The position numbers and the translations under genes were made by a program. This document shows positions 32,137 through 44,335 of a stretch of DNA of 64,000 nt, piece after piece. The first letter of the stretch is position 1, and each line of letters opens with the position of its first letter. The stretch lies in NCBI RefSeq assembly GCF_945957345.1, contig NZ_CAMFKW010000017.1:1-64000 (forward strand), written 5' to 3'. Below the pieces are notes generated by a model. That model made no database searches. It was given only the letters and a program-made list of their open reading frames with translations, and was not told the origin of the DNA. This stretch comes from an uncultured Allobosea sp. (lineage in GTDB: Bacteria > Pseudomonadota > Alphaproteobacteria > Rhizobiales > Beijerinckiaceae).

Positions 32137-34452
32137 TCACAGCCCGTAGACCTCCGCAAGCGACGGCGGATCGGTCGCCAGCGCGAAACGCGGGGAGCTC
32201 TGGGACAGGTTGGGATTGTAGAACGGATCGCGCCCGACGACCTCGGCCCATTGGCGGTTGAATGCGTCGAGTTCGCCGGGCGCGGGTTCCGGCCGGCTGA
32301 CGGATTCATGGTGCTCCAGGCAGGCATAGGGCGTGAAGACGAAATGCCCGCCGGTATGCGCATTGAGCCTCATGCAGAAATCGACGTCGTTATAGTTGAT
32401 CCGATAGGCCGGATCGTAGCCGCCGACCGCCAGGAAATCCGCGCGCCTGATCATCGTGCAGGCGCCTGTCACCGCGCTGTAGTCGCGCGGCACGACCGCC
32501 GAGCAGACCTGCCCGATCTCCGAGCCGTGGTGCAGATAATAGGGGTGCGATGGGCCCTGACCCAGCAGCAGCACGCCGGCATGCTGGATGCGCCCGTCCG
32601 GGAAGAACAGCTTCGCGCCGGCGCCCGAGATGCCGTCCTGCTGGCACCACATCAGCATTTCCTCGATCCAGCCGCGCGAAATGACCCGGATGTCGTCGTT
32701 GAGCAGGATGACGAACTCGCCCCGCGCCGCTTCGGCGAGCCGGTTCATCTTGTCGGAGAGATTGAAGGTCTCGCTGTCATAGCGGATGAGCCGCGCACCG
32801 AGATCGCGCAGCGCCTGCATCAGCTCCGGCTGCAGGTCGCCATTCTCGGAGACCACGATCTCGACATGAGGATAGGTCGTCCGCTCGCGGATCGAACGGA
32901 TGAGGTCGAGCACGTACCAGCCTGTATCGGCGGCATTGCGATAGCCGGCGGTCGGGATGGCGATCGAGACCAGGGGCTCGCCGGTGATGTCGAAGCCTAC
33001 GCGATGCGTGCCGGGCAATGGCCCTCGGCTGACGCTTCCAGGATACCGGCCGTGGTCGACGAAATCCTGCACCGCTCGCCGGGCCGCGAGTTCGGCCTGC
33101 GGCTTGGCCTCGCCGCCCGAGGCGGTCGACTGCGGCAGCGTGCGCCAGTGGTAGAGGACATCGGGGATATGGACGATCTGCTGCGTTGCCGCGGCGAAGC
33201 GCAGCGCAAGGTCGTAATCCTGCGCGAAATCGAATTCGGGGCGGAAGCCGCCGAGGCGCCTCGCCAGGCTCGTCCGGTAGACGCCGAGATGGCAGGTGTA
33301 CATGCAGGAGAGGAAATAGGCCGGCGACCAGTCCGGCTTGAAGAAGGGCGCGGAGCGGCGGCCGGCCTGGTCGATCTTGTCCTCGTCCGAATAGAGCCAG
33401 TCGGCCTGCGGATCGCGGTTGATCGCATCCGCGAAGGCGTGGAGCGCGTGCGGCGCCAGCATGTCGTCATGGTCGAGCAGCGCGATGTAGTCCCCCTTCG
33501 CCTGCGCGAGCGCCGCATTGCTGGCCTGCGCGATGCCGCCATTGGCTGGCAGGAACGTGGGTCTGACGCGCGGATCGCGGGCTGCGAACTCCCTGAGGAT
33601 GCGGTGCGTCGCCGGATCGGTCGAGCCGTCGTCGACGGCAAGCAGCTCCCAGTCCGGATAGGTCTGCGCCAGCACGGACTCGATCGCCTGTGCGAGGAAG
33701 ACCGGCGGCGAGTTGAATGTCGGCATGACCACCGAGAAGCGCGGCTTGACTGGAAACGCTTTGGCCTTCGTGACGAAACGCTGGCGCAGCTCCTCCGTCA
33801 CGGTCCTCTTGCGTATCCAGTTGGCATAGACGGCCGCTTCTCCCCCGCCGCCGGCTGCGATCCGCTGGCGCAGGCCCTGCCATTCGCCGCGCAGCAGCAT
33901 GCCGCCTGCCCGCATCAGTTTGCGCCCGAGGACGCCTCGTCGATGCAGGTTCCGCAGCTGGCGCAGCACCGCCAATCCGCCGGGTTGTTCGACGGCAAGC
34001 GATGTCAGCGCCAGTTCATGCAGCGCGAAGCGGCAAGGAGTCTCGCTGGGGTCGATGCGGAAGGCGCGGGCGGGGGCCGGCAGGTCGATAATTGCCGCGA
34101 TCTCGATCCTGTCGCCGCCGACGGGGATGGCGATGCTGTCCTCGGCGCGGAAGCCTTCGCCGATATCGAAATAGAGGCGCCAGCGATCCTGCCTCTCCTC
34201 GTCGGCATCGGGCAGGGTCGCAGCGAACCGGATGGAGAGGAGGCCGGCCGGCAGCCGCTGCGGCACGTAGAAATAGCAGTCGAAGCCGTCGCTGCGCCAA
34301 TGGCCGGCGGTAGCGTCAGGCCGCAGGTTCCCCGCGGGATGGAAGGGCAGTCCACGCGCGCGCTTCAGCAAGGCGCGCAGCGCGGCGAAGCGACCATGCG
34401 CGCTCGGCGCCTCTATATCCTGGCGGCCTGCCATGGTCTCGATATCCGTCAT
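32137..34452 (-). CDS. Tandem family-2 glycosyltransferase
   Basis: A 771-residue cytoplasmic protein with two GT-A domains. Residues about 1-235 hold an uncharacterised N-terminal region. The first GT2 domain starts near 239 (FSVVMPTFNSPP) with DDGS at 274-277 and the metal-binding DHDD at 327-330. The second starts near 494 (VSIAIPTAGY) with LLNDDIRV. Two active sites suggest it adds two sugars or polymerises an alternating repeat of the surface polysaccharide. It ends the minus arm of the CDP-sugar operon, 28 bp after the RmlC-like gene. Confidence 0.88.
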   Translation of the reverse strand: MTDIETMAGRQDIEAPSAHGRFAALRALLKRARGLPFHPAGNLRPDATAGHWRSDGFDCYFYVPQRLPAGLLSIRFAATLPDADEERQDRWRLYFDIGEGFRAEDSIAIPVGGDRIEIAAIIDLPAPARAFRIDPSETPCRFALHELALTSLAVEQPGGLAVLRQLRNLHRRGVLGRKLMRAGGMLLRGEWQGLRQRIAAGGGGEAAVYANWIRKRTVTEELRQRFVTKAKAFPVKPRFSVVMPTFNSPPVFLAQAIESVLAQTYPDWELLAVDDGSTDPATHRILREFAARDPRVRPTFLPANGGIAQASNAALAQAKGDYIALLDHDDMLAPHALHAFADAINRDPQADWLYSDEDKIDQAGRRSAPFFKPDWSPAYFLSCMYTCHLGVYRTSLARRLGGFRPEFDFAQDYDLALRFAAATQQIVHIPDVLYHWRTLPQSTASGGEAKPQAELAARRAVQDFVDHGRYPGSVSRGPLPGTHRVGFDITGEPLVSIAIPTAGYRNAADTGWYVLDLIRSIRERTTYPHVEIVVSENGDLQPELMQALRDLGARLIRYDSETFNLSDKMNRLAEAARGEFVILLNDDIRVISRGWIEEMLMWCQQDGISGAGAKLFFPDGRIQHAGVLLLGQGPSHPYYLHHGSEIGQVCSAVVPRDYSAVTGACTMIRRADFLAVGGYDPAYRINYNDVDFCMRLNAHTGGHFVFTPYACLEHHESVSRPEPAPGELDAFNRQWAEVVGRDPFYNPNLSQSSPRFALATDPPSLAEVYGL

Positions 34453-34480: not shown

Positions 34481-35011
34481 TCAGGCGCGATGGTCGGGCC
34501 AGGCGCCGTCGCGCATATTCAGGCGCGGCGCAGGGTCCGGCCAATCGATGCCGAAGGCGGGATCGTTCCAGCGCAGGCCGCGGGCGAGATCGGCGCGATA
34601 GGCCGCGCCCATCATGTAGAAGACCTCGCTGTCGGGCTTGAGCGTCTGGAAGCCGTGGGCGCAGCCTTCCGGCACGAACAGGGCCCGCCCGCGCGCCGCA
34701 TCCAGCACGACGCCGATCCATTCGCCATGGGTCGGGGAATCCGCGCGCAGGTCGACCGCGACATCGAAGATCGCGCCGCGCGAGCAGCGCACGAGCTTGG
34801 CATCCGGAACCGGCATCGCCTGGTAGTGCAGGCCGCGCAGCGTGCCCTGATGCGGATTGAAGGACAGATTGCACTGAACCGGCGCGAAACGGATGCCGTG
34901 TCTGGCAAAGACATCGGCGCAGTAGCTGCGCGCGAAATGCCCGCGCTCGTCCGCCAGCGGCGCGAGATCGACGACGAAGACGCCGGCGATGCGGGTTTCC
35001 GTGAGGATCAC
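34481..35011 (-). CDS. dTDP-4-dehydrorhamnose 3,5-epimerase-like protein (RmlC family)
   Basis: A 176-residue cupin. LRGLHYQ with His62 corresponds to the catalytic His of RmlC, and the FVPEGCAHGFQ and RWNDPAFGIDWP blocks are intact. The usual YKxTxYY segment reads YMMGAAY, so active-site details differ. It overlaps the methyltransferase gene by 4 bp. In this operon the substrate should be a CDP-4-keto-6-deoxysugar, possibly C-methylated, rather than dTDP-4-ketorhamnose (inference). It may epimerise only one carbon. Confidence 0.88.
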   Translation of the reverse strand: MILTETRIAGVFVVDLAPLADERGHFARSYCADVFARHGIRFAPVQCNLSFNPHQGTLRGLHYQAMPVPDAKLVRCSRGAIFDVAVDLRADSPTHGEWIGVVLDAARGRALFVPEGCAHGFQTLKPDSEVFYMMGAAYRADLARGLRWNDPAFGIDWPDPAPRLNMRDGAWPDHRA

Positions 35012-36243
35012 TGGAGCACCTCGACCTGCGGGATCGGCACGACGAAGCGCCCGCCCCAGTCATGCAGCGCCGCCATCTGCCGCATGATCTCGTTCTTGAG
35101 GTTCCAGGGCAGGATCAGCAGGTAGTCCGGCTTTTCCTCCAGGATGGCTCCCGGCGCCTTCACCGGGATGCGCGTGCCCGGCAGCAGCTTGCCTTGCTTG
35201 TGCGGACTACGATCGACCGTGAAGGCGACGAGTTCCGGCCCGATGCCGCAATAGTTGAGCAGCGTATTGCCCTTGGCCGGCGCGCCATAGGCCGCGACCC
35301 GCTTGCCCGCCCGCCTGGCGTCGATCAGGAAATCGAGAAGGGCGCATTTCGTCCGGGCGATCCGCTCGGCGAAGCCCGTATAGGAATCGATCCGGTCGAG
35401 GCTGAAGGCCTCCTCCTCCCGCCGCAATGCCAGCACGGCTTCGGAAGGCGCGCGCCCTGCGGCGCCGACGTGCCCGGCAAAGACGCGCAGCGAGCCGCCA
35501 TGCGTCGGCAATCGCTCGACATCGAATACGGCAAGGCCATGGGCCGCGAGCACCCGCTCGATCGCCAGGAAGGAGAAATAGGAGAAGTGCTCGTGATAGA
35601 TCGTGTCGAACTGGTTCTCGATCAGCATCCGCAGCAGATGCGGGAATTCCAGGGTCAGCACGCCCTTCGGCTTCAGCAGCAGCTCGAAGCCGGCGACGAA
35701 ATCGTTGAGGTCCGGCACATGCGCGATGACGTTGTTCGCGGCGATCAGATCGGCCTGATGCCCTTGGGCTGCGAGGTCACGAGCCGTCTTGCGGCCGAAG
35801 AACCGCACTTGCGTCGGGATGCCCCGGCGCTGCGCCACCGCCGCGACATTGGCCGCCGGCTCGACGCCCAGAACCGGTATGCCGGCACGCTGGAAGAACT
35901 GCAGCAGGTAGCCGTCGTTGCTGGCTATCTCGACGACCTTGCTGACCTCCGATAGCCCGACGCGCTCGGCCATCGCCGCGGCGTAGCGCTCGCTATGGTC
36001 GAGCCAGCTTTGCGAGAAGCCGGAGAAATAGGCGTAGTCGCTGAAGATCGCGCCGGGCGTCTCGACATCGCGCGCCTGCACCAGCTTGCAGGCATCGCAG
36101 ACATAGACCTGTAGCGGGAAGAACGTCTCGGGCTCGCCGGCATCGGCCGAGGCGACGAAGGCATTGGCGAGCGGCGTCATGCCGAGATCGGCCAAGACCG
36201 TGGTCAGGGGAGCGCTGCAGAAGCGGCACTTGCAGGAATTCAT
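35008..36243 (-). CDS. Sugar-nucleotide C-methyltransferase (SAM-dependent, NovU/TylC3-like)
   Basis: A 411-residue three-domain methyltransferase. The N-terminal zinc-binding domain has C4, C6, C9 and the CDAC pair C49/C52. The SAM domain has VVEIASNDGYLLQFF. The C-terminal domain has KRVAAYGAPAKGNTLLNY. This architecture belongs to enzymes that add a methyl branch to C-3 or C-5 of 4-keto-6-deoxysugar nucleotides. It overlaps RfbG and the epimerase by 4 bp each. The product is predicted to be a methyl-branched CDP-6-deoxyhexose. Confidence 0.88.
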   Translation of the reverse strand: MNSCKCRFCSAPLTTVLADLGMTPLANAFVASADAGEPETFFPLQVYVCDACKLVQARDVETPGAIFSDYAYFSGFSQSWLDHSERYAAAMAERVGLSEVSKVVEIASNDGYLLQFFQRAGIPVLGVEPAANVAAVAQRRGIPTQVRFFGRKTARDLAAQGHQADLIAANNVIAHVPDLNDFVAGFELLLKPKGVLTLEFPHLLRMLIENQFDTIYHEHFSYFSFLAIERVLAAHGLAVFDVERLPTHGGSLRVFAGHVGAAGRAPSEAVLALRREEEAFSLDRIDSYTGFAERIARTKCALLDFLIDARRAGKRVAAYGAPAKGNTLLNYCGIGPELVAFTVDRSPHKQGKLLPGTRIPVKAPGAILEEKPDYLLILPWNLKNEIMRQMAALHDWGGRFVVPIPQVEVLQ

Positions 36244-37328
36244 GAGCGAAAGGCTCCGCTTTCATAGGATTCGATATCGGCGGCGATGAGTTCGGCGGCG
36301 GGCATTCCCCGGTCGTGGAGTCGGTACCAGCGTGCGGTCAGGGCGACGGCCGCTTCGAAATCGAGCCGTGGGCGCCAGTCGAGGCGCTGGCGCGCCTTGC
36401 TGGAATCGAGCGCGAGGCGGTTCGCCTCATGCGGGCCGGACGCAGCATCGGCTTGCGACGTGGCTCCGGCGCCCCAAGCTTGGGCCAAGGTCTCCAGAAC
36501 CTCCGACACGGAGCGCTCGGCGCCACTGTCGGGGCCGAAATTCCAGGCTTCCGCGAAGGAGGGGCCATCCATGTGCAGCCGCTCGGCCAGCAGCAGGTAG
36601 CCGCAGAGCGCATCGAGGACATGCTGCCAAGGCCGCGTCGCACCGGGATTGCGCACTGCGAGCGTCTCGCCGCTCGAAAGGGCCCGGACAGCATCCGGCA
36701 CGAGCCGATCCTGTGCCCAGTCGCCGCCGCCGATGACGTTGCCCGCGCGTGCCGTCGCGATCGCGATCAAGCGATCGGATGATCCCGCGAAGGAGCTTCG
36801 CCAGGATGCGGCGAGGATCTCGGTGCAGGCCTTGCTGGCGCTGTAGGGATCATGTCCGCCGAGCGGATCGATCTCGCGATAGGGCCAGGGCCATTCGCGG
36901 TTCTCATAGCATTTGTCGGTGGTCGCGATGACGACGCTGCGCACGCTCGGCTGGGCGCGGATCGCTTCCAGCAGGTTTAGGGTGCCCAGGACATTGGTCT
37001 CGAAGGTTAGGCGTGGATCGCGATAGGAGGGGCGCACCAGCGGCTGCGCCGCGAGATGCAGCACGATCTCCGGCGCAAATCCTTCAAGGGCGGCCCGTGT
37101 CGCCTGCGCATCGCGGATGTCGCAGGCGATGCCGGGCATGACATCGGCCAGGAAGCCGAGTCGTTCGCGTTCCGCCTCGTCCTGCGCCGGCAGCGACAGG
37201 CCGAGCGCTATCGCACCCAGCCGCTTGAGCCATAGCCCGAGCCAGCTTCCCTTGAAGCCGCTATGGCCGGTGACGAGCACGCGCCGCCCGCGCCAAAAGG
37301 CCGGATCGGGGTTCACCAGACCCGCCAT
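36240..37328 (-). CDS. rfbG: CDP-glucose 4,6-dehydratase
   Basis: A 362-residue extended SDR enzyme that converts CDP-glucose to CDP-4-keto-6-deoxyglucose. The NAD-binding motif is GHSGFKGSWL near residues 21-30, followed by the catalytic block TTDKCYEN and the YxxxK motif in PYSASK. It overlaps RfbF by 16 bp and the methyltransferase by 4 bp. The usual follow-on enzyme RfbH (3-dehydratase for 3,6-dideoxysugars) is absent, so the 3-OH is probably retained. Confidence 0.93.
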   Translation of the reverse strand: MAGLVNPDPAFWRGRRVLVTGHSGFKGSWLGLWLKRLGAIALGLSLPAQDEAERERLGFLADVMPGIACDIRDAQATRAALEGFAPEIVLHLAAQPLVRPSYRDPRLTFETNVLGTLNLLEAIRAQPSVRSVVIATTDKCYENREWPWPYREIDPLGGHDPYSASKACTEILAASWRSSFAGSSDRLIAIATARAGNVIGGGDWAQDRLVPDAVRALSSGETLAVRNPGATRPWQHVLDALCGYLLLAERLHMDGPSFAEAWNFGPDSGAERSVSEVLETLAQAWGAGATSQADAASGPHEANRLALDSSKARQRLDWRPRLDFEAAVALTARWYRLHDRGMPAAELIAADIESYESGAFRS

Positions 37329-38089
37329 GGCGCCTCGCCGGTATCCCAGAGCTCTTCCAGGCGGCGCTTGTCGCGCAACGTGTCCATCGGCTGCCAGAAG
37401 CCGTCATGCGGATAGGCCATCAGCTCGCCGTCGCGGGCGAGGCCTTCCATCGGGCCGCTTTCCCAGACAGTGTCGTCGCCGGCGATCTGGTCGAGCGCCT
37501 GCGGCGACAGCACGAAGAAGCCGCCATTGATGAAGCCGGAATCGCTCGCCGCCTTCTCGCGAAAGCCGGTGACGCCGTTGCCGTCGAGATCGAGCACGCC
37601 GAAGCGGCCGGGTGGACGCACGGCCGTCACCGTCGCGGCGCGGCCATGGCTTTCATGGAAGGCGATCAGACGGTCGATCGGCACGTCCGAGACGCCGTCG
37701 CCATAGGTCAGGCAGAAGCTTTCGCCTTCCAGATAGGGCTTCACGCGGGCGATGCGCCCGCCCGTCATCGTCTCCTGCCCGGTATCGACCAGCGTGACCT
37801 TCCACGGCTCGGCCCGGCCGGCATGGACGGTCATGCCGCCCTGCGTGAAGTCGAAGGTCACGTCCGAGGAGTGGAGCAGGTAGTTCCCGAAATACTCCTT
37901 CAGGGCATAGCCGCGGTAGCCCAGGCAGATGACGAACTCGTTGATGCCGTAGCGCGAATACAGCTTCATGATGTGCCAGATGATCGGCCGGCCGCCGATC
38001 TCGATCATCGGTTTCGGGCGATGCTCCGATTCTTCCATGATCCGTGTGCCGCGGCCGCCCGCCAGGATCACCGCCTTCCTGATCTGCAT
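37313..38089 (-). CDS. rfbF: Glucose-1-phosphate cytidylyltransferase
   Basis: A 258-residue nucleotidyltransferase making CDP-glucose from glucose-1-phosphate and CTP. The N-terminal motif LAGGRGTRIMEES with PKPMIEIGG, the IWHIMKLY segment and LTYGDGVSDV are characteristic of RfbF. It is first in the minus arm of the polysaccharide locus and divergent from the export permease. Two operator-like palindromes lie in the 169-bp gap between them. Confidence 0.94.
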   Translation of the reverse strand: MQIRKAVILAGGRGTRIMEESEHRPKPMIEIGGRPIIWHIMKLYSRYGINEFVICLGYRGYALKEYFGNYLLHSSDVTFDFTQGGMTVHAGRAEPWKVTLVDTGQETMTGGRIARVKPYLEGESFCLTYGDGVSDVPIDRLIAFHESHGRAATVTAVRPPGRFGVLDLDGNGVTGFREKAASDSGFINGGFFVLSPQALDQIAGDDTVWESGPMEGLARDGELMAYPHDGFWQPMDTLRDKRRLEELWDTGEAPWRVW

Positions 38090-38133: not shown

Positions 38134-38152
38134 TGTGAGAAATTTTCCCACA
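38134..38152. promoter_or_regulatory. Operator-like palindrome 1 (rfbF side)
   Basis: TGTGAGAA-ATT-TTCCCACA is an 8-3-8 inverted repeat with one mismatch. It is 45 bp upstream of the rfbF start and directly beside a minus-strand -10-like TATTAA (38126-38131). It shares the consensus TGTGGGAa-N3-tTCCCACA with three other sites in this window. Confidence 0.55.
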
Positions 38153-38157
38153 CGATA

Positions 38158-38186
38158 TTGACGTGGGAATTATTCACACTTAATCA
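38158..38186 (+). promoter_or_regulatory. Candidate promoter of the export/glycosyltransferase operon
   Basis: TTGACG (38158-38163), a 17-bp spacer and TAATCA (38181-38186) resemble a sigma-70 promoter reading toward the permease gene. Palindrome 2 lies exactly in the spacer, where a bound repressor would block RNA polymerase. Promoter prediction by eye only. Confidence 0.45.
38163..38179. promoter_or_regulatory. Operator-like palindrome 2 (export operon side)
   Basis: GTGGGAA-TTA-TTCACAC is a 7-3-7 inverted repeat with one mismatch, in the spacer of the candidate plus-strand promoter. The surrounding block from 38149 resembles the minus-strand block upstream of DUF6502 (43933 downwards): both begin CACACGATATTG and carry the palindrome a few bases later. 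Confidence 0.6.
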
Positions 38187-38258
38187 GCCTGTCAACCCGC
38201 CGCCGGTCGTTTCCTGCGGATCGCTGGAGGCGGGAGGTCTGTTCGAGGAGGTCGGCTG

Positions 38259-39092
38259 GTGTCAGCCCCAGCAATGCTTGTTCACGATGCGCGTTCGCGC
38301 GGTCGCCATCCCTGGCGCGGTGCGATGGCCGATGCCGCCGGGGCGCTTGGCCTCGTCGAACTCTGGCTCACCATGGGCTGGTACGACGTCCGCCAGCGCT
38401 ACAGCCGTTCGGTCTTCGGCCCGTTCTGGGTAACGATCAGCCTCGCCGTCTTCGTCGCGGGGCTCGGCGTCACCTATGCTGCGCTCTTCCGCGTGCCGGT
38501 CTTCACCTATCTGCCCTATGTGACCGTGGGCATGGTGCTGTGGTCGCTGATCACAGCCCTGTTGAACGAGGGGGCAGCGACCTTCACCGCGGCGACGGCG
38601 GCGATCAAGCAGATGCCGGCGCCGATCGGCATCCATGTCCTGCGTGTCGTCTGGCGAAACCTGATCATCCTTGCCCACAACGCGGTCATCGTCCTGCTCG
38701 TCCTTCTCGCCTGCGGCGTTCGGCCGGGCTGGGTGGGGCTTGCGGCCATGCCGGGGCTCGTCCTGCTGCTGCTCAACGGCATCGGTTGGAGCGTGACGCT
38801 CGGCCTCGTCGGCGCGCGCTTTCGCGACATGATGCCCCTTGTCGCCAATGCGACGCAGATGCTGCTGTTCGTGACGCCGGTGCTCTGGCGTGCCGAGGAC
38901 CTCGGAACGCGACGTGTCCTGGCGGAACTCAATCCGCTGTTCCACTTGATCGAAATCGTGCGTGCCCCGCTGCTCGGAGCGGGCTTTCCGATGGAGAGCT
39001 TCGCGGTCGCAACGATCGTAACATTGCTCAATCTCGGGCTCGCTTTCGCGCTCTATGCGCGGCTGCGCTGGCGCGTGGCTTATTGGTTGTGA
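38259..39092 (+). CDS. ABC-2 type polysaccharide export permease (Wzm-like)
   Basis: A 277-residue membrane protein. I accept the GTG at 38259 because GAGGAGG lies seven bases upstream. Later in-frame ATGs lack such a site. Six hydrophobic helices are visible, and the family landmarks are RYSRSVFGPFWVTIS near the N-terminus and LNPLFHLIEIVRAPLL near the C-terminus. With the ATPase 7 bp downstream it would export a lipid-linked O-polysaccharide or teichoic-like glycan across the inner membrane. Confidence 0.9.
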   Translation: MSAPAMLVHDARSRGRHPWRGAMADAAGALGLVELWLTMGWYDVRQRYSRSVFGPFWVTISLAVFVAGLGVTYAALFRVPVFTYLPYVTVGMVLWSLITALLNEGAATFTAATAAIKQMPAPIGIHVLRVVWRNLIILAHNAVIVLLVLLACGVRPGWVGLAAMPGLVLLLLNGIGWSVTLGLVGARFRDMMPLVANATQMLLFVTPVLWRAEDLGTRRVLAELNPLFHLIEIVRAPLLGAGFPMESFAVATIVTLLNLGLAFALYARLRWRVAYWL

Positions 39093-39099
39093 GGCGGCG

Positions 39100-39864
39100 A
39101 TGAGCTCGATCCGTCTCGACGGCGTCAGCGTGCAATTCCCGCTCTATGGCGGCAGCGCCCGCTCCCTGCGCAATCGCATCGTCAGCAGCGCCACCGGCGG
39201 CCGCATCGGCTCCGATGCCCGCGCACGGACCTGTGTCGAAGCCCTCAGCGGCATCGATCTCGGCATCGACCATGGCGAGCGCGTCGCCCTCGTCGGCCAT
39301 AACGGCGCCGGCAAGACGACGCTGCTGCGCGTGCTCGCCGGCATCTATGTCCCGCAGAGGGGGCGCGTTGCCGTCCATGGCAAGATCGCGCCGCTCTTCG
39401 ATATCGGCCTCGGCATGGATGGCGAGGCGAGCGGCTACGACAATATCCGCCTGCGCGGGCTCTATCTCGGCCTCAGCCGCCGACAGATCGAGAGCCGTAT
39501 CGATGAGATCGCCGACTTCACCGAGCTCGGCGGCTTTCTGGACATGCCGATCCGCACCTATTCGGCGGGCATGCAGACACGGCTGTCCTTCGCGATCTGC
39601 ACCAGCGTCGATCCCGAGGTTCTGTTGCTCGACGAGGGCATCCTTGCCGGCGATGCAGCCTTCATGGCCAAGGCGCAGGCGCGGCTTGCTGGCTTCGTCG
39701 CCCGCGCCGGCATCCTCGTCCTCGCCTCGCACAGCGACAGCCTGCTCGCCAGCCTCTGCACCCGCGCGCTGCGGCTTGAGCACGGCCGGCTCGTCGCCGA
39801 CGGGCCGTTGCAGGACGTGCTCGCCCCGCTCCAATCATCTTCATCCAGGAGAATTCCGGCATGA
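39100..39864 (+). CDS. Polysaccharide export ABC ATPase (Wzt-like, short form)
   Basis: The ATG at 39100 (MSSIRLDG..., GAGG upstream) gives 254 residues. Walker A is GHNGAGKTT, the signature-like region is YSAGMQTRLSF, Walker B is LLLDEG and the switch is ASHSD. Gly after the Walker B Glu (DEGI) and the SAGM signature are typical of the Wzt/TagH/KpsT group. It ends just after the ATPase fold, so the C-terminal glycan-binding domain of long Wzt proteins is missing. Export is therefore probably independent of a chain-end modification (inference). Confidence 0.9.
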   Translation: MSSIRLDGVSVQFPLYGGSARSLRNRIVSSATGGRIGSDARARTCVEALSGIDLGIDHGERVALVGHNGAGKTTLLRVLAGIYVPQRGRVAVHGKIAPLFDIGLGMDGEASGYDNIRLRGLYLGLSRRQIESRIDEIADFTELGGFLDMPIRTYSAGMQTRLSFAICTSVDPEVLLLDEGILAGDAAFMAKAQARLAGFVARAGILVLASHSDSLLASLCTRALRLEHGRLVADGPLQDVLAPLQSSSSRRIPA

Positions 39865-40862
39865 TGGCTTCTGCTGCAAACAGGGCACGCTGCGTCGCCG
39901 GCATCGTGATCTATCGCCCGCAACCCGAGGCGCTGCAGCAGCTCGTTGCTTCGCTGGCCGACGACGTCACGACGATCGCCATCTACGCCAATTCGCCGGT
40001 CAGCGGCGAGGAGCAGCAGGCGCTTGAAGCTACGGCCGGTGCGGCTGAACTGGTGGTGCTGAGGCCCGGCCTCAACCGTGGGCTCGGTGCCGCCTACAAT
40101 GCCTTGCGCCAACTCGCCGAAATCTGCGGCAGCGAGTTCCTGTTCCTTCTCGACCAGGACAGCCAGCCGCAGCCCGGGCTCGTCGGAGCCCTGACCGCGA
40201 CCTATCGCGATCTCATGGAGCGCGGCGAGCGTGTCGCCGTGGTGGGGCCGCAGCCGGTCGATCGCGAAGGCGATGCGATGCGGTTATCCGCGGCGCCGGT
40301 GCAGCCTCGGGACAAGCGCAGCCCCGTGCGGACGCGCTTCGTCATTTCCTCGGGGTCGCTGATCCCACTTGATGCGCTGGCGGCCATCGGTGATTTCCGC
40401 AGCGATTATTTCATCGACGCGATCGATATCGAATGGTGTCTGCGCGCCGGGGGCGCCGGCTATTCGATTTGGGTCGATCCAGCGGTTTCGATGCCGCATC
40501 AGCTCGGCCGTGGGGTCATCCGCCTGCCGCTCGCATTGCTGCTGACCGACCAGCCCCCGCGCCGGCTCTACACCTATGTCCGCAATCAGCTCGCCATGCT
40601 GCGCCTGCCGCATGTTCCGATGCGGCACAAGGCGAAGTTCGTGATCTCGCTGCCGGTTCGGCTCGCGGTGCATCTCGTCCATCACGGCTTCTCGCGGGAT
40701 TGCGTGACGGCGCTGGTCAACGGCCTGGTCGACGGGGTGTGCAACCGGCTGGGGCCGCCCGATCGCGCTCTCATTCCGTGGTGGAATGCCGGCCTGCGCT
40801 CTCGCTTTGCCCGCAATGTCGGGATCACTGCCGATGCGGCAAGCGGGCAGCGCCCGGTATGA
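39861..40862 (+). CDS. Family-2 glycosyltransferase (rhamnosyltransferase type)
   Basis: A 333-residue GT-A enzyme. RGLGAAYNALRQ, then the metal-binding FLLDQDSQP, match rhamnosyltransferase-type GT2 proteins, as do ISSGSLIP and DAIDIEWCLRA. It overlaps the ATPase gene by 4 bp and the reductase gene by 4 bp (ATGA). It probably transfers the 6-deoxysugar made by the locus. Donor is inferred from neighbours. Confidence 0.88.
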   Translation: MMASAANRARCVAGIVIYRPQPEALQQLVASLADDVTTIAIYANSPVSGEEQQALEATAGAAELVVLRPGLNRGLGAAYNALRQLAEICGSEFLFLLDQDSQPQPGLVGALTATYRDLMERGERVAVVGPQPVDREGDAMRLSAAPVQPRDKRSPVRTRFVISSGSLIPLDALAAIGDFRSDYFIDAIDIEWCLRAGGAGYSIWVDPAVSMPHQLGRGVIRLPLALLLTDQPPRRLYTYVRNQLAMLRLPHVPMRHKAKFVISLPVRLAVHLVHHGFSRDCVTALVNGLVDGVCNRLGPPDRALIPWWNAGLRSRFARNVGITADAASGQRPV

Positions 40863-41758
40863 GCGCGCCGATCATCCTGGTGCTGGGGCGTTCCGGCCAG
40901 CTTGCCAGGGCGCTGGCCGAGCGGGGCGGCGGCAGCATCGTCACCGCGGGCCGTCCCGATTTCGACCTGACGCGGCCGGATGCATCTGAACGCCTGCTCG
41001 ACCGGCTCCGCCCCGCTGCCGTCATCAATGCCGCCGCCTATACGGCGGTCGATCGCGCGGAGAGCGAGCCGGAGCTGGCTTTCGCCCTCAATCGCGACGC
41101 TCCCGCCGCGCTTGCCAGGGCTTGCGCGCGAGCGGGGCTGCCGCTCATCCATGTCTCCACTGACAGCGTCTTCGACGGCGCGCAGGACCGGCCCTATCGG
41201 GAAAGCGACACGCCGCGACCAATCAATGTCTACGGCGCCTCGAAACATGCCGGGGAATGCGCGGTGCGTGATGCGCTGCCTTCGGCGCTGGTGGCGCGAA
41301 CCTCGTGGATTTTCGGGGGGCACGGCGAAAGCTTCGTAAGCCGCCTCCTGGGTTGGGCGGAGGGACGCGATCGGCTGACGATTGCCGGCGACCAATATGG
41401 CCGGCCGACCTATGCGCCAGCGCTTGCCGAAGCCCTGTTGACGCTCGCCCGGCGTCAGCTCGACGGGACAGTCAGCGGCGGGCTGATGCACCTCGCGGGC
41501 GAGAGCGTGCTCAGCCGCGCGGAGCAGGCGCGGATCATCCTGGAGGCTGCCAGCCGTCGCGGCCGGCTCGCTACGGCGATCGTCCCTGTTCCGTCGAGCC
41601 TGCATCCGACACCGGCGAGGCGGCCCCTCAATGCCGTCCTCGATTGCGGCCTGGCCGGCAGGCAGGGCCTCGCGCTCGGGCCGTTCCGCGGTGATCTCGC
41701 AGCGACGCTCGATGCGCTGCTCGGGCCGGCCATGCCGGGCGAGCGATTGACCGCCTGA
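40859..41758 (+). CDS. rfbD: dTDP-4-dehydrorhamnose reductase-like protein (RmlD family)
   Basis: I start at the ATG at 40859, coupled to the glycosyltransferase stop, giving 299 residues. The Rossmann motif LGRSGQLARAL, NAAAYTAVDRAE, STDSVFDG and YGASKHAGE are the RmlD landmarks. No RmlA or RmlB is encoded in the window, so it may reduce the 4-keto group of the CDP-sugar made by the divergent arm instead of, or as well as, dTDP-4-ketorhamnose (inference). Confidence 0.88.
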   Translation: MSAPIILVLGRSGQLARALAERGGGSIVTAGRPDFDLTRPDASERLLDRLRPAAVINAAAYTAVDRAESEPELAFALNRDAPAALARACARAGLPLIHVSTDSVFDGAQDRPYRESDTPRPINVYGASKHAGECAVRDALPSALVARTSWIFGGHGESFVSRLLGWAEGRDRLTIAGDQYGRPTYAPALAEALLTLARRQLDGTVSGGLMHLAGESVLSRAEQARIILEAASRRGRLATAIVPVPSSLHPTPARRPLNAVLDCGLAGRQGLALGPFRGDLAATLDALLGPAMPGERLTA

Positions 41759-41779
41759 GAGCGCTCGGCGGCTGTCCGT

Positions 41780-42982
41780 TCACCGACCGGGGCCCGCTCC
41801 GCCGGGGCCTGCTCCTCCTGGCCCGCCACCTCCCGGTCCACCGCCACCCGGTCCACCACCACCCGGGCCGACTCCGCCCGGGGCGCCACCTGCAGGCCCG
41901 CCGCCAGGGCCGATTCCGCCGGGGCCGCCCAATTCGCCGCGCCCACCCGGGCCAAAGCCCCCCGGTCCGCCGGTCGGTCCGCTTTGGCTGAATCCCCCGG
42001 GGCCGAACGATTGACCTCCGACAGGGCCGCCGCCAGGGCCGCCGTCATTGCCGCCGCCGTCGCCGTCGGGCCGCGCCAGGCGCATATTCTCGATGCTCGG
42101 GACGCCGTCCAGACCGATGCGCCCGTCCAGCACGGCCCGGACGTCCCGCCAGGGCGAGAGGGCGTAGCCGAAGGCTTTGCTGTGCAGCGAAAGGCCGGAG
42201 CCCAGCAGCAATTGCCCTTCGCCGCCGCGCAGATAGCTCTCGACCGAGAAGGCACCGGTCGCTGGCAGCGCGGTGGCGGCTGCGGCGGTGCTCGCCCGGA
42301 AGCCGCCCCGCGCGATGCGCCCGGAAACGGCGATGCGGCGGCCGACCAGGGCCTCGTCGATATCCAGCAGCTTGAGCCCGCCGATCCAGAGCCCGTCATC
42401 ATCCTTCTCGACGATGCCGACGACGCTCTCGATCCTTTCGACGGGACGTTCGACCAGGCTGGCGATGATCGTCCCGTCGACCCGGCGCAGGCCGCTGACG
42501 GCGACATGCTCACCTCTGCGCCAGCCCCTGGTTTCAAGGTCGGGCCGAGTCTGAACGGGTTGCCCGAGCACGTCGATCCCGTCCCGATAGACGGCGGTGA
42601 TCGGTCCGACCACCTCCCGCTCGACGGCGATGGTGTTCGTGACGAGGCCGCTCCCGTCAGGCCGCGCGACGACGCGCACGACATGTCCGATGCGCAGGTC
42701 GCGCGCGCTGCGGACCAGCCCGTCGATGGTGACCGGCACGTCCTGCGGGTAGGCAATGCGGCTGTCGTTGACGATGATGCTGCCGAAGCGCTGGATCGTG
42801 CCGACGAAGCCGGTGCCGCCGATGCCGCGGTCGGAGCCGGCATTGCCCTCCGGGGCGAAGCCGGTGCCGCCGATGCCGACATCGCGCGGCCGCTCAGGCG
42901 CGGCAATCGCAGGGCGCCAGGCCAAGGCAGTGCCGAGGGAGGCCAGCAGCGCCCGGCGCGTCAATGCAGGGCGCTTGCTCAT
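41780..42982 (-). CDS. DUF5666 domain protein with Tat signal and GPGG-rich tail
   Basis: The ATG at 42982 overlaps the DUF6502 gene by 4 bp and gives 400 residues. The N-terminus has a Tat-like TRRALL and a hydrophobic stretch ending ARPAIA-like, so it is exported. Two GIGGTGF motifs follow (near residues 36-60), then repeated small beta domains of the DUF5666 type (GTIQRFGSIIVND; GPITAVYRDGIDVLG; GIVEKDDDGLWIGG). The last 90 or so residues are low-complexity Gly/Pro (GPGG units). Function unknown. Probably periplasmic or cell-surface. Confidence 0.82.
   Translation of the reverse strand: MSKRPALTRRALLASLGTALAWRPAIAAPERPRDVGIGGTGFAPEGNAGSDRGIGGTGFVGTIQRFGSIIVNDSRIAYPQDVPVTIDGLVRSARDLRIGHVVRVVARPDGSGLVTNTIAVEREVVGPITAVYRDGIDVLGQPVQTRPDLETRGWRRGEHVAVSGLRRVDGTIIASLVERPVERIESVVGIVEKDDDGLWIGGLKLLDIDEALVGRRIAVSGRIARGGFRASTAAAATALPATGAFSVESYLRGGEGQLLLGSGLSLHSKAFGYALSPWRDVRAVLDGRIGLDGVPSIENMRLARPDGDGGGNDGGPGGGPVGGQSFGPGGFSQSGPTGGPGGFGPGGRGELGGPGGIGPGGGPAGGAPGGVGPGGGGPGGGGPGGGGPGGAGPGGAGPGR
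41784..42060 (-). repeat. GPGG low-complexity coding repeat
   Basis: The 3' end of the DUF5666 gene is built of short GC-rich units encoding GPGGxGPGG and GGGGPGG. Such repeats can change length by slippage. The frame stays open through the region. Confidence 0.75.
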
Positions 42983-43830
42983 CCCCGGCTGGCCCCGGTG
43001 TCGTCTTCGCCCGGTTCCTTCTCGCGGAAGACATAGACGCCGCAATTCCAGCGGTGATTGCCGCCGGCATCGCTCTCGCAGGCGGCATTCGCCTCGCGGT
43101 TGAGCTGCTGCAGCATCTCCAGTGCAAGCTCGCGCGAGCGCGCCTCGAGCCGCTCGGCCAGTTCGGCCGAGAGCCCGTCATAATGCACCGAGCGCTCCAC
43201 GAAGGGCGGCTTGGCGGCGAGCACATTGGCGACCGAAGCCGCGAGATGGTCGTGCAGGTTTCGGCCGAAATAGTACAATTTGTCGTCGTCGCCGTGCTGG
43301 GGGATGAAGGCCGCTTCGGCCAGCGCGATGCGATCATCGGCGTCGATTGTAACAATTCGGCGGTCGACCCATTCGTCGAGCACGGCGCGCGGGCGCAGGT
43401 CGCGCGTCACCGACGCCACGAGTTCTTCGAAGGAGGGCTGCCCGGCATCCGCCGTGCGCGGCAGGGGCAGGGGCGCCCCGGCGGCATCGCAATAGCGTGG
43501 CGAAGCGATCCAGCGCGCGATGATCGCGCCCGTGCGCGAGACGGAAGCCGGCACCGCGTTGACCGGTGCGCCGGCGCCACGCAGGCGGCTGACTTCCTTG
43601 CGGTGGATCCCGGTCAGCAGGCTGACGCGGCTGTCGGTCTGCTCTTTGCCGGGCAGGGCGAAGTCGTATTCGGCGACGTTGACATAGAGCTCCCGGAGCA
43701 GCTGGCAGAGCGCCGGGAACGTCATCCCGGCTCGGATGCACAGCCGCACGAGCGGGCGCAGCAGTCGCGCCAGCGGCGGATAGAGCTTCTCGGCAGTGGG
43801 ATCCTGGGCTGCGTCCGACATGTGGGACAT
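42979..43830 (-). CDS. DUF6502 family protein, predicted HTH regulator
   Basis: A 283-residue soluble protein with start ATG at 43830 (GGAAAG eight bases upstream). Residues about 20-85 contain helices ending in a helix-turn-helix-like segment (SRVSLLTGIHRKEVSRLR), so DNA binding is likely. The C-terminal part has a conserved-looking YYFGRNLHDHLAASVANVLA. It precedes and overlaps the DUF5666 gene. Two TGTGGGA-type palindromes lie upstream, suggesting autoregulation. The function of DUF6502 is not established. Confidence 0.82.
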   Translation of the reverse strand: MSHMSDAAQDPTAEKLYPPLARLLRPLVRLCIRAGMTFPALCQLLRELYVNVAEYDFALPGKEQTDSRVSLLTGIHRKEVSRLRGAGAPVNAVPASVSRTGAIIARWIASPRYCDAAGAPLPLPRTADAGQPSFEELVASVTRDLRPRAVLDEWVDRRIVTIDADDRIALAEAAFIPQHGDDDKLYYFGRNLHDHLAASVANVLAAKPPFVERSVHYDGLSAELAERLEARSRELALEMLQQLNREANAACESDAGGNHRWNCGVYVFREKEPGEDDTGASRG

Positions 43831-43844
43831 TTAGGTCTTTCCAA

Positions 43845-43863
43845 TGTGGGATACAATCCCACA
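43845..43863. promoter_or_regulatory. Operator-like palindrome 3 (DUF6502 leader)
   Basis: TGTGGGAT-ACA-ATCCCACA is a perfect 8-3-8 inverted repeat, 14 bp upstream of the DUF6502 start codon. It overlaps the leader close to the ribosome binding site. Confidence 0.6.
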
Positions 43864-43905
43864 AAAGTTTGAACGCCTCTTGTATGGCTCATTGGAAACA
43901 GATAA

Positions 43906-43922
43906 GTGGGAATTATTCCCAC
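43906..43922. promoter_or_regulatory. Operator-like palindrome 4 (DUF6502 / small ORF divergent region)
   Basis: GTGGGAA-TTA-TTCCCAC is a perfect 7-3-7 inverted repeat. On the minus strand it follows CACACGATATTG, as palindrome 2 does on the plus strand at 38149. It sits between the DUF6502 start and the divergent small-ORF pair. Confidence 0.6.
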
Positions 43923-43982: not shown

Positions 43983-44096
43983 ATGTCTCTGCGCCGCTCC
44001 AAGACCCTGGCCGCTGCGGCCCGGGCCATCTGCTGCCTGCTGGCGATCTCGGTGCCTTACCTCCTGTTCGTGCTCGAGAGCGCCTTGCACCCATGA
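43983..44096 (+). CDS. Small membrane protein (37 residues)
   Basis: MSLRRSKTLAAAARA followed by one hydrophobic helix (ICCLLAISVPYLLFVL) and a short ESALHP tail. A longer version from the ATG at 43941 is possible. No strong ribosome binding site is visible for either. It overlaps the next small ORF by 4 bp (ATGA), the same coupling seen in real operons here. Unknown function. Confidence 0.5.
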   Translation: MSLRRSKTLAAAARAICCLLAISVPYLLFVLESALHP

Positions 44097-44335
44097 GCGC
44101 GACGGCCATCCCGCCAAAGGCTGCGCAGGCCCCCGACACACGGCTTGAGGGAAAGCGACTGAAGCGCGCTGCACCGCGGGTCGTTCACGTCATCGGGCGT
44201 TGCTTCCTGGCCGCGCTCGCGCTTGTTCTGGCCTGGCTGCTGGTTTCTGCGGAAGTGACGCGCGAGGACGTGACGAGCTGCCATCGCGGCTATCGTGACC
44301 CTGTGACAGGACAACAGGGGGAGCGTCGCTGCTAG
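44093..44335 (+). CDS. Small single-helix membrane protein (80 residues)
   Basis: From the ATG overlapping the preceding stop. Residues 1-33 are basic and soluble, residues about 34-52 form one hydrophobic helix (VIGRCFLAALALVLAWLLV), and a short tail with two cysteines (SCHRGYRDPVTGQQGERRC) would lie in the periplasm. No family recognised. Confidence 0.55.
   Translation: MSATAIPPKAAQAPDTRLEGKRLKRAAPRVVHVIGRCFLAALALVLAWLLVSAEVTREDVTSCHRGYRDPVTGQQGERRC

Follow-up and report, generated by a model that had tools for sequence, protein, structure and literature searches.

Four copies of one palindrome lie in a 64,000-nucleotide stretch of contig NZ_CAMFKW010000017.1 from an uncultured Allobosea sp. 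(hereafter the window), two of them upstream of a gene of the DUF6502 family (PF20112) and two between the divergent genes rfbF and an export permease. The question raised by this locus is which protein reads these sites and what it controls through them. An earlier note, made from the DNA letters alone, had proposed that DUF6502 is the regulator of both regions and switches its own gene together with surface glycan synthesis and export. This proposal is now supported by the co-occurrence of the palindrome with DUF6502, by operator cores upstream of nearly all closely related DUF6502 genes, and by a tie between operator type and a residue of the predicted DUF6502 helix. DUF6502 is very probably a DNA-binding switch recognising one short palindrome ahead of its own gene and, in several soil bacteria, also ahead of genes for the export of a surface sugar coat, and we consider it likely that it is a helix-turn-helix (HTH) factor which binds the 17-bp palindrome as an autorepressor and in this genome also acts over the exporter and rfbFG promoters.

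Operator sites and their co-occurrence with DUF6502

The DUF6502 gene occupies positions 42979..43821 of the minus strand, and its protein matches PF20112 over residues 22-274 (115.4 bits, gathering cut-off 27). Upstream of it are two perfect 17-bp dyads with the core GTGGGA-N5-TCCCAC, the proximal operator GTGGGATACAATCCCAC (43846..43862) and, 60 bp away, the distal operator GTGGGAATTATTCCCAC (43906..43922), which adjoins the divergent candidate small genes. The rfbF/exporter intergenic region contains operator 1 (38134..38152) and operator 2 (38163..38179), each with one mismatched pair. All four palindromes, two of them perfect, were therefore confirmed as the earlier note had described them. 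At up to three mismatches the window has four matches, compared with 0.08 expected from 100 shuffles, and the whole genome (5.2 Mb, 98.84% complete) has no others at this threshold, so that the palindrome is not scattered but confined to the two intergenic promoter regions, as had been claimed. The number of matches should be read with caution, since a reversed control pattern gave 10 genome matches at the same threshold; the count alone is unsurprising, and the unusual part is the clustering in two intergenic regions. The exact core occurs twice in the genome, both times upstream of DUF6502, and its reversed control does not occur. The wider block CACACGATATTG, which had been noted as common to both regions, was found in the window, but the other genus genomes aligned (6 exporter and 10 DUF6502 promoters) did not retain it at both positions; the operator therefore does not need it.

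Relatives were then compared through samples of genomes, to which all group counts refer. In the genus sample DUF6502 is present in 13 of 61 genomes, and the palindrome (at most two mismatches) in 15, namely in 13/13 genomes with DUF6502 and in 2/48 without it (G026 and G054, single matches); Fisher's test, which ignores relatedness, gave p=1.6e-11. Two sites at up to four mismatches precede DUF6502 in 12 of the 13 genomes, and the remaining one, G002, has one site there (3 mismatches) and a closer match at the exporter. In the family sample 48 of 199 genomes have DUF6502 and 43 have the exact core, and comparison of the two genome lists gave 40 with both. The core is thus present in 40/48 genomes with DUF6502 vs 3/151 without it (G006, G128 and G147; p=2e-30, again ignoring relatedness). 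The eight DUF6502 genomes without an exact core include G124, whose DUF6502 match is below the cut-off. When 28 family loci were read directly, 23 had the exact core upstream; three (L060, L064 and L070) had no site even at three mismatches.

A further set of named loci consists of the best 80 of 338 relatives and for this reason leans to close kin; it includes Bosea, Bradyrhizobium, Methylobacterium, Methylocapsa, Beijerinckia, Microvirga and Lichenibacterium. The exact core was found within 400 bp upstream of DUF6502 in 78/80 of these loci, and at least two upstream sites at up to four mismatches also in 78/80, pairs of sites 24-67 bp apart being the usual arrangement. The operator is conserved where the DUF6502 proteins share about 62-73% identity. 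Among 29 genomes of this set searched whole, 28 have the core, with 54 cores in total vs 15 for the reversed control. The number per genome is 1-4 in 27 of them, none in one and 11 in Lichenibacterium, which shows that the set of sites is small. The scan of relatives thus bore out both the conservation of the palindrome and its co-occurrence with DUF6502. DUF6502 is present in 21/398 genomes sampled across the phylum; besides this genus, it was found in further families, orders and classes. In another family of the phylum some genomes (G696, G486, G639 and G705) have four or five DUF6502 genes, which makes them a natural paralogue set for operator specificity.

That the palindromes are due to chance, to a mobile repeat or to an RNA structure, for instance a terminator, would fit the excess of the reversed control in this genome (10 vs 4 at three mismatches). 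We regard this as extremely improbable, since all four sites fall in two promoter regions, the sites are conserved at the protein identities given above, the distance from site to start codon is fixed in 76/78 loci, a specific gap (N5 or N6) recurs in distant relatives, and an Rfam scan of the window gave no match at the gathering score.

Promoter geometry and the direction of control

Taking the gene-nearest core as the reference and counting from its first base, 76 of the 78 loci having the core show an in-frame ATG at +40 to +42. Because this distance is fixed among loci, the ATG at 43819-43821 was preferred as the DUF6502 start over the upstream ATG at 43828-43830. Offsets 20 to 39 were tested for the best mean fit to TATAAT in the named DUF6502 loci, and offset +29 was the best; together with TTGTGT at +6 to +11 this gives a -35 element, a 17-bp spacer and a -10 element. 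The fit of the -10 element is uneven, with four to five of the six bases in 42/78 loci and at most two in 32/78. In the window the presumed -35 is TTGTAT (43851..43856, minus strand), inside the proximal operator, and the presumed -10 is TAAATG (43828..43833, minus strand), 17 bp from it. The ATG at 43821 starts 7 nt downstream of this -10, so a transcript from the proposed promoter would begin at or beside the ATG, and the DUF6502 promoter is probably leaderless.

The facing strand has TTGACG in 69/80 named loci, the motif being present in 34/400 random windows. In 68 of these 69 the TTGACG is followed by a site (at most five mismatches of 16) that fills the 17-bp spacer, and the first and second -10 positions are T and A, respectively, in 68/69 each. 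The presumed exporter promoter in the window, TTGACG-N17-TAATCA (38158..38186, plus strand), has the same layout, with TTGACG at 38158-38163, TAATCA at 38181-38186 and operator 2 filling the 17 bp between them, as the earlier note had pointed out. When the six further exporter promoters from the genus are aligned with it, five have TTGACG and the sixth has TTGAAG.

A protein bound on the -35 element or between the -35 and -10 elements usually blocks polymerase. Because the operators take exactly these positions, the promoter geometry points to repression. The alternative that DUF6502 binds the sites but activates, or does both, repressing itself and using the distal site to activate the exporter, must be considered at this point. 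The sites are mostly paired, so that the distal one of each promoter could be used to activate the facing promoter from upstream, and an activator would co-occur with its sites just as a repressor would. However, the operators either occupy the region between the -35 and -10 elements or overlap the -35 itself, covering about -41 to -25 relative to the presumed start, and TTGACG is a good -35 that should not need the help of an activator. Activation is therefore considered unlikely, though it is the most serious of the alternatives.

With repression as the preferred reading, the following mechanism is proposed. DUF6502 would bind GTGGGA-N5-TCCCAC in this lineage and repress its own gene, one operator covering the -35 of the DUF6502 promoter and the other lying on the facing promoter. 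The second operator pair would act in the divergent exporter and rfbFG promoters, one operator filling the 17-bp spacer, and bound DUF6502 would exclude RNA polymerase. A signal that released DUF6502 would then let DUF6502, DUF5666, the putative small membrane proteins, and the synthesis and export of surface glycan rise together. The analysis shows the sites, their rarity in the genome, their co-occurrence with DUF6502, the promoter geometry and the tie of operator type to helix residue; binding, repression and signal are what we infer.

The predicted helix and the operator across the phylum

The suggestion of the earlier note that the N-terminus of DUF6502 forms a helix-turn-helix agrees with the structure model (m44cad896f624, mean pLDDT 87.2), in which the predicted HTH helices comprise residues 62-69 and 73-79 (43582..43635, minus strand; residues are counted from the codon after ATG 43819-43821). 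The comparison was extended to 62 distant DUF6502 loci, for the most part belonging to other families and classes of the same phylum. TGGGA-N5-TCCCA was found upstream of 18/62 and TGGGA-N6-TCCCA upstream of 9/62, compared with averages of 0.025 and 0.005 in shuffles. Other gaps from 0 to 20 gave none upstream, and the downstream regions of the 62 loci gave none. In 9/62 loci, where the helix pattern was not found, the upstream region was set from the frame start; another placement of the upstream regions gave 17 (N5) and 7 (N6) instead of 18 and 9.

The 71-row alignment A2 took 58 of the 62 distant loci; L239, L240, L283 and L242 were left out, the last because its profile match is a fragment. 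Gly70, Arg73 and Trp103 are invariant in this alignment. The residue before Arg73, just ahead of the second HTH helix, sorts the operator types; in the window it is His72 (codon 43603-43605, minus strand), followed by Arg73 (codon 43600-43602, minus strand). Rows with His have TGGGA-N5 in 27 cases and N6 in none, 21 being without an exact site, and rows with Thr or Ser have TGGGA-N6 in 9 cases and N5 in none, 5 being without an exact site. Per predicted recognition helix, it is Thr/Ser-Arg-Lys that goes with TGGGA-N6, and Thr-Arg-Arg rows have TGTGC/T-N5 in 2/3. The latter operator was also found in 4/5 Gln rows, and TGGGC-N5 in 1/3 Asn rows. A general palindrome with gap 5 is present in 35/71 rows vs 0.8 in shuffles, and with gap 6 in 9/71 vs 0.94.

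A quick tree without bootstraps, from which the helix columns were excluded, gives three changes of operator and six losses or gains of His, some of the non-His rows being without a site. All three independent helix/operator pairs agree (sign test p=0.25). Across the phylum the operator type is thus consistent with the recognition-helix residue of DUF6502, and this code rests on few independent events because there are only three independent changes.

These data also bear on the possibility that a separate, unlinked regulator binds the palindrome and that DUF6502 is merely one of its targets. Co-occurrence alone would also be expected if DUF6502 were the main target of such a regulator, and the binding by DUF6502 is a prediction, though one with strong comparative support. 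However, modelling predicts an HTH in DUF6502 itself, the site is missing in 46/48 genus and 148/151 family genomes without DUF6502, and both the spacing and the bases of the operator go with the DUF6502 helix residue, which is not expected from an unlinked regulator. A separate regulator is therefore judged very unlikely, and DUF6502 itself is retained as the proposed binding protein.

Glycan export, neighbouring genes and related systems

The proposed target on the exporter side starts with a Wzm-like ABC-2 export permease (38259..39092, plus strand), whose sole NCBIfam match is the galactan export permease (261.3 bits, cut-off 380) and which has no Pfam match. It is followed on the same strand by a Wzt-like export ATPase (39100..39864; best NCBIfam match galactan export ATPase, 316.9 bits, cut-off 400), a rhamnosyltransferase-like glycosyltransferase (39861..40862; TIGR01556, 134.9 bits, below the cut-off of 200.55) and an RmlD-like reductase (40859..41758; Pfam RmlD_sub_bind, 278.6 bits, within the longer frame 40433-41758). 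The divergent row on the minus strand starts with the other proposed target, rfbF, encoding glucose-1-phosphate cytidylyltransferase (37313..38089; TIGR02623, 423.3 bits, cut-off 300.25). Next come rfbG, encoding CDP-glucose 4,6-dehydratase (36240..37328; TIGR02622, 455.1 bits, cut-off 278.45), a C-methyltransferase (35008..36243; Pfam Methyltransf_14, 215 bits), an RmlC-type epimerase (34481..35011; TIGR01221, 162.9 bits, cut-off 155.75) and a large protein with glycosyltransferase matches, all below cut-off (32137..34452). RfbF and RfbG, both above the curated cut-offs for the CDP-glucose pathway, lie beside the exporter and suggest a CDP-sugar-derived residue.

An ortholog of the permease (at least 83% identity) is present in 7/61 genus genomes, and 7/7 have DUF6502 (p=4e-6, ignoring relatedness). 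Each of the seven has a promoter site pair 28-29 bp apart. In two of them, G043 and G058, the 18-19 kb examined showed no rfbF, and rfbG is represented by a relative of 29-31% identity, yet the exporter sites are kept. Two observations weigh against a strict glycan regulon: the exporter ortholog is missing in 6/13 DUF6502 genomes of the genus, and no site pair was found at any of the more distant permease loci of the genus that were checked (8 out of 18). The six exporter-less genomes have sites at up to two mismatches only at DUF6502, and the constant target is therefore the promoter region of DUF6502 itself with the facing promoter. Autoregulation joined to glycan switching, as first proposed, would thus hold here and in several relatives, and its glycan part is not universal.

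A second association with export was found in the named loci. In 37/80 (36 Bradyrhizobium and one Methylocapsa) another kind of exporter, a glycosyltransferase/ABC-2 permease fusion, is encoded divergently from DUF6502, and 36 of these 37 loci also have a Wzt-like ATPase; Bradyrhizobium examples with this ATPase alongside are L150:5013-7016 and L197:5021-7702 (the Pfam scan was made on a similar protein in L106). In 11 fusion-exporter loci a gene intervenes, and there two separate sites lie on the exporter side. Both match at up to three mismatches in 10 of the 11, and L170 has one such site and an exact core 40 bp away. The intervening frame in these Bradyrhizobium loci encodes 173 amino acids without a Pfam match (L150:7346-7867 and alike), and operator sites lie on both sides of it. 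The best reading of DUF6502 is that of a repressor family with a conserved operator, regulating its own gene and, in repeated cases, glycan export of the ABC type.

Next after DUF6502, with its start overlapping the end of that gene, is a gene for a DUF5666 protein (41780..42982, minus strand; 27.7 bits in a Pfam scan of the longer frame 41780-43045, cut-off 27). A homologue follows DUF6502 in 76/80 named loci, and by eye its N-terminus resembles a twin-arginine export signal. Divergent from DUF6502 are two candidate small open reading frames (ORFs) on the plus strand, each with one hydrophobic segment and no Pfam match, encoding 37 aa (43983..44096) and 80 aa (44093..44335, overlapping the preceding stop). 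A profile, itself trained on the hits it had returned, finds similar small ORFs facing DUF6502 in 66/88 loci; this count is therefore not independent, and the ORFs may be a conserved micro-protein partner. A more speculative idea, which we hold to be possible but doubtful, is that DUF6502, DUF5666 and the divergent single-span small membrane protein form an old surface-sensing circuit. The membrane-bound and exported partners would report the state of the envelope or glycan and DUF6502 would be the DNA-binding output, with an operator code rewirable through one helix residue and glycan exporters captured repeatedly.

Extra sites in family genomes, whose genes were judged from rough gene calls, precede glycosyltransferase, aldose epimerase, YfiO/BamD-like, hexapeptide transferase, DUF1236, DUF6894 and other genes, apparently a mixed set that leans towards the envelope. 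Two species of one genus share an exact operator placed between like genes (L126:4011 and L127:4006). The frame 262 bp to one side of it in L126 is YfiO/BamD-like according to a scan of that locus alone, and this operator may mark an envelope-assembly target. Other sites in paired genomes lie at frames that are alike by eye (L116/L119, L109/L121, L117/L120, L128/L131 and L123/L124), these being DUF1236, D-Ala-D-Ala dipeptidase, a 754-783 aa protein, hexapeptide transferase and DUF6894; one member of each pair was scanned, and two for some. In the genus genome G051 an exact operator lies between GDSL lipase and methyltransferase genes (L045:7871). Several extra sites in other genomes, for example those of L111, L114 and L115, have no sensible neighbouring gene in the rough gene calls, falling inside frames or between converging frames, and are not claimed as targets.

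If the proposed role is correct, it would give a function to a family present in 48/199 family and 21/398 phylum genomes sampled, and operators, hence target genes, could be predicted in genomes with DUF6502. The pairs of helix residue and operator form a natural series on how regulators change specificity. In Bosea and Bradyrhizobium, for whose life with plants surface glycans matter, it would also identify a direct regulator of the surface polysaccharide exported by ABC transporters.

The Pfam entry for PF20112 gives no function, and a literature search for DUF6502, PF20112 or the operator strings found no paper among open-licence papers, preprints being outside its scope. PF20112 is the only Pfam match of the protein, and NCBIfam gave none at E<=0.001. 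A PDB sequence search with the DUF6502 alignment A1 gave no match up to E=1, and Foldseek against the PDB gave nothing at E<=0.001 for either DUF6502 model, a family missing from these lists not being thereby excluded. HetR of cyanobacteria was considered and not accepted as a relative, as it differs from DUF6502 with an rmsd of about 11 and 10-11% identity and gives no usable match. Single modules of DUF6502 resemble IclR and DeoR in fold, with no whole-protein profile match to either family at E<=0.001. On the side of the proposed targets, the nearest counterparts are the Wzm/Wzt ABC exporters of galactan or O-polysaccharide; the window permease and ATPase match the NCBIfam galactan exporter best, and their scores below the equivalog cut-offs indicate a related exporter. 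On the side of the regulator, the closest known systems include the palindrome-binding HTH repressors of the DeoR, SorC/LsrR, TetR and IclR families.

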